16,048 nt of DNA from an uncultured Ruminococcus sp. (GTDB lineage: Bacteria; Bacillota; Clostridia; Oscillospirales; Ruminococcaceae). Location of the stretch: contig CAMWLD010000013.1 in NCBI GenBank assembly GCA_947175005.1, positions 1 through 16,048 on the forward strand, written 5' to 3'. The notes beneath the pieces are model-generated. The model was not told the DNA's origin. It worked only from the letters and a program-made list of their open reading frames with translations, and did not search any database. The position numbers and the translations under genes are program-made. This document shows positions 7,564-15,828 of the stretch, in pieces (position 1 is the first letter of the stretch; each line of letters starts with the position of its first letter).

Positions 7564-7630
7564 GCAGCGTGTTGCTGCGCCCACTCGCTATGTTAAACGG
7601 AGGCGTTATGTATTTTGCTTCCCGGTAACT
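7564..7630 (-). promoter_or_regulatory. 67-nt conserved structured element, copy 1, in the gltB leader
   Basis: This segment aligns without gaps to 15358-15424, with 50 of 67 positions identical. The best-conserved parts, read on the minus strand, are AGTTACCGGG at the 5' end, AATACATAA, GCCTC and TGGG. The 3' end forms GCAGC-AACAC-GCTGC. In copy 2 the same stem has a compensatory A-U to G-C pair and a U.G wobble. It lies between the gltB promoter and the gltB start codon, and its last base is 28 nt from the ATG. A second hairpin, CGCAGCA pairing with TGCTGCG, would compete with the terminal stem and ends right before the ribosome site. I do not recognise a named riboswitch family in it. A cis-regulatory RNA is inference. 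Confidence 0.55.
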
Positions 7631-7759: not shown

Positions 7760-7788
7760 ATTTTAACACATATTTTTCACTTTGTCAA
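7760..7788 (-). promoter_or_regulatory. sigma-A promoter of gltBD
   Basis: On the minus strand TTGACA (7788-7783), a 17-bp spacer and TAAAAT (7765-7760) form a near-consensus promoter. The start of transcription would lie near 7753, giving a gltB leader of about 218 nt. Just inside that leader a TCGGG/CCCGA inverted repeat (7713-7717 and 7738-7742) can form another stem. On the plus strand that repeat is followed by CTTTTTTTG, so it could also stop antisense transcription. Confidence 0.8.
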
Positions 7789-15357: not shown

Positions 15358-15424
15358 GCGGCATGTCACCGCCCCCAATCGCTGTATAAGACAGAGGCAT
15401 TATGTATTCGGCCGCCCGGTAACT
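15358..15424 (-). repeat. 67-nt conserved structured element, copy 2
   Basis: Ungapped match to 7564-7630, with 50 of 67 bases the same and in the same orientation. Read on the minus strand it starts AGTTACCGGG and ends in the stem GGCGGU-GACAU-GCCGC, where one pair has changed from A-U to G-C and another from C-G to U.G relative to copy 1. Here it follows the DUF3795-type gene on the same strand (stop at 15454) and is not directly before any gene; the nearest downstream feature is the small-RNA promoter about 110 nt on. It could be a 3' UTR structure, the leader of an unrecognised short RNA, or a dispersed repeat. Confidence 0.55.
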
Positions 15425-15453
15425 TAAAAATGCGTTAGTCCGATAAGCGGAAT

Positions 15454-15828
15454 TTATCTTTCTCCGCTTTTGATAAAACCGATCAATGCCTCGACATCAT
15501 CAAAGTCGTCATAATCGCCGTTTATTCCTTCGCGATGATAGACAACACCTGCTTTCTCATTTCGTTCAAGGCAGTCTAAAAGCTCTGTCTCCCCATATCT
15601 TTTGATGAATAATGTAAAACTGTACGGCTTGATTTTGGACAGCAACCCTTTTCGGCATTCCGACTCACATTCGTAGCAATGTCCACAGTTTTTCTCAATT
15701 GAACACCTTCTGTTTTCGCACCAATCCTTATCGGGACATTCTCCACTACCGCACCCGCTGCAATGATCGTTCTCGCTGCATAAGCAGCACGCCAGTCCGC
15801 AGCGTGCTATCCCAAGTTCCCGTTTCAT
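15454..15828 (-). CDS. cysteine-rich DUF3795-type protein
   Basis: The protein has 124 aa. Thirteen cysteines fall within the first 58 residues, in CxxxCCxC, CxxC and CGHCYEC patterns (C10, C14, C15, C17, C23, C26, C31, C37, C42, C48, C51, C54, C58), suggesting bound zinc or an iron-sulfur cluster. The C-terminal half (SKIKPYSFTLFIKRYGETEL, then a helix and GINGDYDDFDDVEALIGFI in parts) is as expected for the DUF3795 family, whose biochemical function is not established. No signal peptide or membrane segment is seen. The ATG at 15828 is preceded by GGGAGG at ideal spacing. It lies 54 nt after a VOC-like gene on the same strand and may be cotranscribed with it. A hairpin AAGCGGA/TCCGCTT (15445-15451 and 15463-15469) encloses the stop codon. 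Confidence 0.8.
   Translation of the reverse strand: MKRELGIARCGLACCLCSENDHCSGCGSGECPDKDWCENRRCSIEKNCGHCYECESECRKGLLSKIKPYSFTLFIKRYGETELLDCLERNEKAGVVYHREGINGDYDDFDDVEALIGFIKSGER

Follow-up and report, generated by a model that had tools for sequence, protein, structure and literature searches.

A probable MITE family of an uncultured Ruminococcus clade whose target duplication is a whole hairpin

Introduction

Insertion sequences of the IS1182 family are listed with variable direct repeats of about 0-60 bp. IS1272/TnSha1 is described as entering inverted repeats, often transcription terminators, without a primary-sequence consensus (PMC4923244; PMC5678879); several of its target hairpins are confirmed terminators, and the hairpin is reported to be partly deleted with no target duplication (PMC4923244). 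Duplication of a whole stem-loop has been drawn as a possibility, an alternative to hairpin replacement by IS1272 (pathway b in Fig. 13 of PMC5678879). IS1182-family members with palindromic targets are noted in the same two accounts (Siguier et al., 2015, cited in PMC4923244 and PMC5678879). Among small repeats, the pneumococcal RUP, BOX and SPRITE and the QMITEs of Coxiella are presented as mostly intergenic, multi-copy sequences discussed with or as MITEs (PMC10969869), and SMR-A of Haloquadratum is described as a ~110-bp element with terminal inverted repeats that inserts within palindromes (PMC3119063).

Here we analyzed a 16,048-nt stretch of DNA (the window) from the genome of an uncultured Ruminococcus sp., together with genomes of its relatives. 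G000 denotes the window's own genome, other G numbers the genomes compared, and L numbers individual loci. The element described below had no earlier description in the open-access literature that we searched.

Results

Two copies of a 67-bp core in the window

The window holds two copies of a 67-bp sequence on the minus strand, which align without gaps in the same orientation and are identical at 50 of 67 positions; the runner-up ungapped match to copy 1, on either strand of the window, reaches 32/67. The first-pass annotation had reported this pair as well as paired changes in its terminal stem (A-U to G-C and C-G to U.G), and both observations hold: the stem reads GCAGC/GCTGC in copy 1 and GCGGT/GCCGC in copy 2. 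Copy 1 is located 18 nt upstream of the first start codon of the gltB ORF (TTG, 7544) and 27 nt upstream of an ATG (7535), and copy 2 is found 30 nt past the stop codon of the minus-strand ORF 15454-15828. The features are as follows:

~7564-7630, minus strand: element copy 1, 67-bp core, the right half of the probable MITE (model R1, 72.1 bits; model R2, 29.3 bits, E 3e-7)
7564..7578, minus strand: right-end hairpin of copy 1, the tip of the element, GCAGC-AACAC-GCTGC (from the sequence and from stem covariation across the family)
~15358-15424, minus strand: element copy 2, 67-bp core (R1, 63.1 bits; R2, 18.7 bits, E 2.5e-4; presence/absence between species)
15358..15372, minus strand: right-end hairpin of copy 2, GCGGT-GACAT-GCCGC (from the sequence)
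15424..15454, minus strand: probable left arm of copy 2, AATTCCGCTTATCGGACTAACGCATTTTTAA, resembling by eye the arm of G006 copy L035 in an alignment
7760..7788, minus strand: promoter-like site TTGACA-17-TAAAAT upstream of copy 1 (consensus match, 11/12)

The covariance model R1 was built from 26 copies, copy 1 included. R2 was trained on G005 copies that R1 had selected, none of them from the window's genome, and its E-values are rough; at E≤10 it finds precisely the two copies in the window and nothing besides. Comparison with Rfam gave no family overlapping copy 1 or copy 2. The promoter-like site would place copy 1 inside a gltB leader transcript; such consensus matches number seven in the region, with 1.6 expected.

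In G006 copy 1 occupies the same place, accompanied by a truncated tandem copy. The G006 ortholog lacks copy 2; its ORF is 94% identical (protein) and its flanks are 89-95% identical (DNA). The difference extends into the 30 bp left of the core, so a clean duplication cannot be made out, and a deletion in G006 may also account for it.

The core is the right half of a ~138-bp element

In better-preserved species (G005 and G009), the 67-nt piece makes up the right half of an element of ~138 bp with inverted-repeat ends. The left end reads CAG[TC][CT]TGTCGAAAAAG. Next to it come a left arm that varies, the conserved block GTTACCGAGCC[AG]CAAAA, another variable segment and CAACGAGTTGGCT; the right end, CAGCGACACGCTG, is by itself a small hairpin. 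When the surroundings of the G005 copies were aligned, the similarity extended in many of them ~71 nt upstream of the core, starting with CAGTCTGTCGAAAAAG, and the right end appeared as CTTCAGCGACACGCTG. The ends are thus imperfect inverted repeats, CAGTCTGTCG and CAGCGTGTCG, met in G005 and G009 as CAG[TC][CT]TGTCG on the left and the reverse complement CAGCGTGTCG on the right. The core's head lies near 29 of 33 left-end sites, and the other four include L159, a shortened copy that keeps its right end, and L193, at the edge of the stretch examined.

Tandem arrays of 2-4 cores with a period of ~97-102 bp are present at L097 (4163-4522), L111 (469-843), L112 (8031-8403), L098, L099, L100 and L101, and some arrayed copies are trailed by extra tail modules (CGAG-TGGCTGC plus hairpin). 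Simple transposition does not explain these arrays. A 21-bp palindrome such as GTTTCGGCAGTATGCCGAAAC stands directly ahead of the right-end hairpin at L007 (G000) and at L043 and L044 (G006).

The target duplication is a whole stem-loop

In many G005 copies an identical stem-loop abuts both ends of the element. For flank analysis we kept 67 of 89 G005 matches and set aside weak or truncated copies along with the tandem arrays of L097; enough flank was available in 59 for local alignment and in 51 for the analysis with the right end fixed. In local alignments of left with right flanks, 24 of the 59 copies scored ≥11, compared with 0.8 expected from pairing flanks of different copies; some of the 24 (L157, L107 and L187) have boundaries that are offset and are perhaps not true duplications. 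When the right end was kept fixed, a flanking direct repeat was found in 26 of 56 usable copies, made up of 21 of 51 in G005 and five in G009, the latter picked for already visible duplications from six full-length copies with both ends; the remaining 30 of the 56 have no recognisable duplication. The sixth G009 copy, L215, is full-length with unlike hairpins on its two sides, and is possibly the product of recombination or rearrangement between copies. Among copies of other species, 24 of 48 scored ≥11 (5.9 expected), many of these being tandem arrays that match themselves.

After two of 28 rows (L152 and L171) had been dropped as contig-edge artefacts, 26 duplications were subjected to folding, and 24 of them fold as a stem-loop better than shuffles of their single bases. 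The aligned duplications are 11-42 nt long, and the duplicated whole stem-loops ~18-42 bp; examples are L213, with AGCCGAACTTAATGCAGTTCGGCT on each side, and L221, with ATGCCGACG[GA]ATTGTCGGCAT. The flanking repeats are 136-140 bp apart in 18 of the 26 copies, a short, non-coding interval with no room for a transposase; in the remaining eight, the aligned repeat overruns the boundary (four copies) or the spacing is shorter, 115-130 (four copies). At L191 and L214 (G025), the two flanking hairpins differ by compensated changes that retain pairing, as if both had been kept as hairpins after duplication.

Many of the target hairpins look like intrinsic terminators, judging from their sequences. 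A run of at least four As precedes the left hairpin in 20 of 26 copies, a run of at least four Ts follows the right hairpin in 14, and both are present in 12; the mean A- and T-runs at the hairpins are 4.6 and 3.7, compared with 1.9 and 2.1 farther out. By simple ORF calling, the right-hand gene points toward the element in 20 of the 26, and in the larger G005 set it does so in 41 of the 63 copies that have a gene called on that side.

One insertion, L217, was compared with its empty site by searching across the genus. In G009 the site reads ACCGCCTTTCGGAAAATACCCCAAAGGCGGT - element - ACCGCCTTTCGGAAATATCCAAAAGGCGGT, and its G025 ortholog has a single ACCGCCTTTCGGAAATACCAAAAGGCGGT, after which the two sequences continue in register. 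The orthologous sites in G012, G002 and G004 likewise have one hairpin and no element, and G011 has other sequence there. Because the hairpin flanks the element on both sides and the empty ortholog has it once, we read the element as a MITE that duplicates the whole hairpin.

In the G000 and G006 copies, flanking duplications are hardly detectable: one of 14 scored ≥11 (0.31 expected), and none is visible at the window copies. Since their left ends are also unclear, membership of the window copies in the family is read from the 67-bp core. We take them to be ordinary members of the MITE family, older and eroded relics of a sub-family common to G006, whose positions in the gltB leader (copy 1) and behind a small ORF (copy 2) are a matter of happenstance.

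The family is dispersed and nearly confined to one genus

A BLAST search of G000 with copy 1 returned eight hits at E≤0.01, counting copy 1, and these lie at unrelated places. In 20 relatives, including 12 from the genus, the hits numbered 14 in G006 and one in G010. A second element type turned up in other species when the genus was searched by pattern; it shares the head GTTACCGAGCCGCAAAA, is about equally long and has a comparable tail, (A)CGAG-TGG and a hairpin. With the best 150 candidates per genome scored, R1 at E≤0.1 matched 18 of 20 genus genomes, the window's own included, with at least 135 matches in G008, 113 in G005, 67 in G022 and 52 in G009. G000 itself had at least 17 in this search, compared with at least 14 in an order-wide run that used stricter filters and scored the best 17 candidates per listed genome. 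In the latter run one of 294 other genomes of the order gave a match, a weak one (28.5 bits, E≤0.001): L117 1501-1567 of G101, from another genus of the family, which scores 28.8 bits with the G005-only model and may be a distant true copy. L117 1501-1567 adjoins a T-box-like leader (81.9 bits, under the Rfam cut-off of 93). In named database records, 13 of 14 matching stretches, from two of these species, come from 'uncultured Ruminococcus sp.' metagenome assemblies; the other one, from Pseudomonadales, is taken as a chance match. The element is therefore nearly confined to one genus.

The first-pass annotation had read the pair either as a lineage-specific, dispersed structured repeat or as a new cis-regulatory RNA, and had proposed a covariance-model search in which hits at scattered, unrelated intergenic sites would favor the former. 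That is the outcome, and the repeat reading stands. The regulatory-RNA reading is not supported, in view of the mobile-element ends, the target duplications, the empty orthologous site and the gltB survey described below.

Contigs of G005 start or stop inside or beside the element at L168, L152, L157 and L177, and the repeat may break metagenome assemblies of these bacteria.

Copies at gltB

Among 16 gltB loci found in the genus, the element is present at two (G000 and G006); two of the 16 (L143 and L145) start at the first bases of their contigs, which leaves 14 informative. A leader specific to gltB was dropped as an explanation on this count. Across the 67 G005 copies, which are intergenic, gene orientations are mixed. 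Rfam comparison of seven other loci gave one sub-threshold partial overlap, with ncr952 on L213 (28.7 bits; cut-off 100).

The MITE copy in the gltB leader might have been recruited in the G000/G006 lineage to regulate gltB, as RNA or as DNA. Its location is the same in the two species, a promoter-like site lies upstream of it, and G006 has a second, truncated tandem copy; shared descent, however, suffices for its presence in two close species, and we consider co-option unlikely.

Covariation of the right-end hairpin

The right-end stem is paired in 83.3% and 93.9% of cells in two alignments, with 30 and 87 stem cells altered on both sides, and none of 500 shuffles reached either value. The 87 changes of the second alignment compare with 29.8 in shuffles; having been fitted to the model, this alignment is biased toward it, and kinship alone can beat shuffles without structure. 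From a single wobble pair the first-pass annotation had argued for selection on minus-strand RNA. Stem mismatches across the family point elsewhere: G.U on the element strand and A-C (G.U on the opposite strand) occur at 9:9, 5:8 and 6:9 in three overlapping alignments. Stem mismatches thus show no strand preference, and therefore the constraint need not act on RNA; a DNA hairpin at a transposon end explains the covarying stem equally well. A long-range pairing of the conserved blocks GAGCCGC and GGCT, missing from consensus folds, was dropped by eye.

A covarying hairpin at one end, together with a high copy number at intergenic sites, might also be expected of a palindrome-associated or REP-type element moved by a single-strand transposase (HUH, IS200/IS605 or RAYT). 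To our knowledge, HUH-moved elements in general are without terminal inverted repeats and without target duplications. PATEs, for example, are described as having neither inverted-repeat ends nor target duplication (PMC3119063). The copies in G005 and G009, in contrast, have terminal inverted repeats and long target duplications, and we regard a single-strand transposase as improbable. Weakest of all, and in our judgment hardly tenable, is a new riboswitch-like leader RNA on the minus strand, for example for nitrogen genes: the covarying terminal hairpin and a copy 1 lying within the predicted gltB leader and retained in G006 would suit it, but the element is found at just two of 16 gltB loci, its G005 copies are intergenic with mixed orientations, its stem mismatches are strand-symmetric, no Rfam family overlaps the window copies, and the inverted-repeat ends, the duplicated targets and the empty site are marks of a mobile element.

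Search for a mobilizing transposase

A MITE would be moved by a transposase supplied in trans, and candidate parents were sought among 20 genus genomes. An IS1182 transposase model gave matches in seven of the 20, all below the cut-off and at loci without the ends of the MITE, and an IS1634 model gave none in the 20. Two IS-like elements inspected have ends around TAGTC..CCTCA, not CAGTCTGTCG. Both families were dropped as parents, and no transposase with matching ends was found in these 20 incomplete and fragmented assemblies. No long element bearing the left end was present among the loci examined; seven sites in G009 and G025 that match part of the left end were judged by eye to be chance, eight loci of viral contigs with the exact left end had a convincing partner end in no case, and a plasmid search with the L213 element gave no match. 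A reading as integron attC sites was dropped since the ends do not fit. An IS1182-like element at L212 ~1013-2667 (G011) has the ends ATAATTAGTCTCTCCTCAA and flanks (aacagccaacc / ggttggctgtt) that resemble hairpin halves, and this element may likewise target a hairpin.

Discussion

We conclude, with considerable confidence, that the repeated core belongs to a non-autonomous MITE family of one uncultured Ruminococcus clade, that its target duplication is a whole hairpin, and that the window copies are eroded members. What first appeared to be an orphan riboswitch is thus a mobile element; of the earlier interpretation, the dispersed lineage repeat is retained and the new cis-regulatory RNA is not supported. 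The result is also a caution, since dispersed, covarying 'RNA motifs' from comparative genomics can be transposon ends.

A possible mechanism is as follows. The element inserts at the base of stem-loops, a good number of which are probably intrinsic terminators, and there a transposase acting in trans may join the 3' ends of the element to the 5' feet of a cruciform. Joining at these feet would duplicate the stem-loop and leave one complete hairpin on each side, so that neighbouring genes would retain a terminator, termination would be spared and more than 100 copies could be tolerated. In its strongest form the proposal states that target choice and duplication length are set by DNA shape alone, that the transposase makes its cuts at the base of an extruded hairpin, and that the element is insulated between two hairpins; we consider the chances of this form to be evenly balanced. 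If true, the element would have a self-neutralising way of inserting, by which over 100 copies could build up. Its numerous natural insertions, its empty site and one simple rule (the duplication equals the whole hairpin) make the family a testbed for structure-directed transposition.

Compared with known systems, the Ruminococcus element is small, intergenic and multi-copy like RUP, BOX, SPRITE and the QMITEs; duplication of a whole terminator as target, however, is not mentioned for them in the treatment given in PMC10969869. It resembles SMR-A in being short, with terminal inverted repeats and palindromic targets, and differs from it in that SMR-A is described as an archaeal element with no target duplications (PMC3119063). 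It shares palindromic targets with the IS1182-family members reported to have them, and its own membership of that family is putative. The closest likeness is to IS1272/TnSha1, the IS1182-family element of staphylococci, which also has terminator hairpins as targets. An IS1182-type transposase with matching ends was not found for the Ruminococcus element in the 20 genus genomes, and whereas IS1272 is described as deleting or replacing the hairpin, the Ruminococcus element duplicates it whole. Shape-set targeting, if true, would provide natural evidence for the pathway of whole stem-loop duplication drawn for IS1272.
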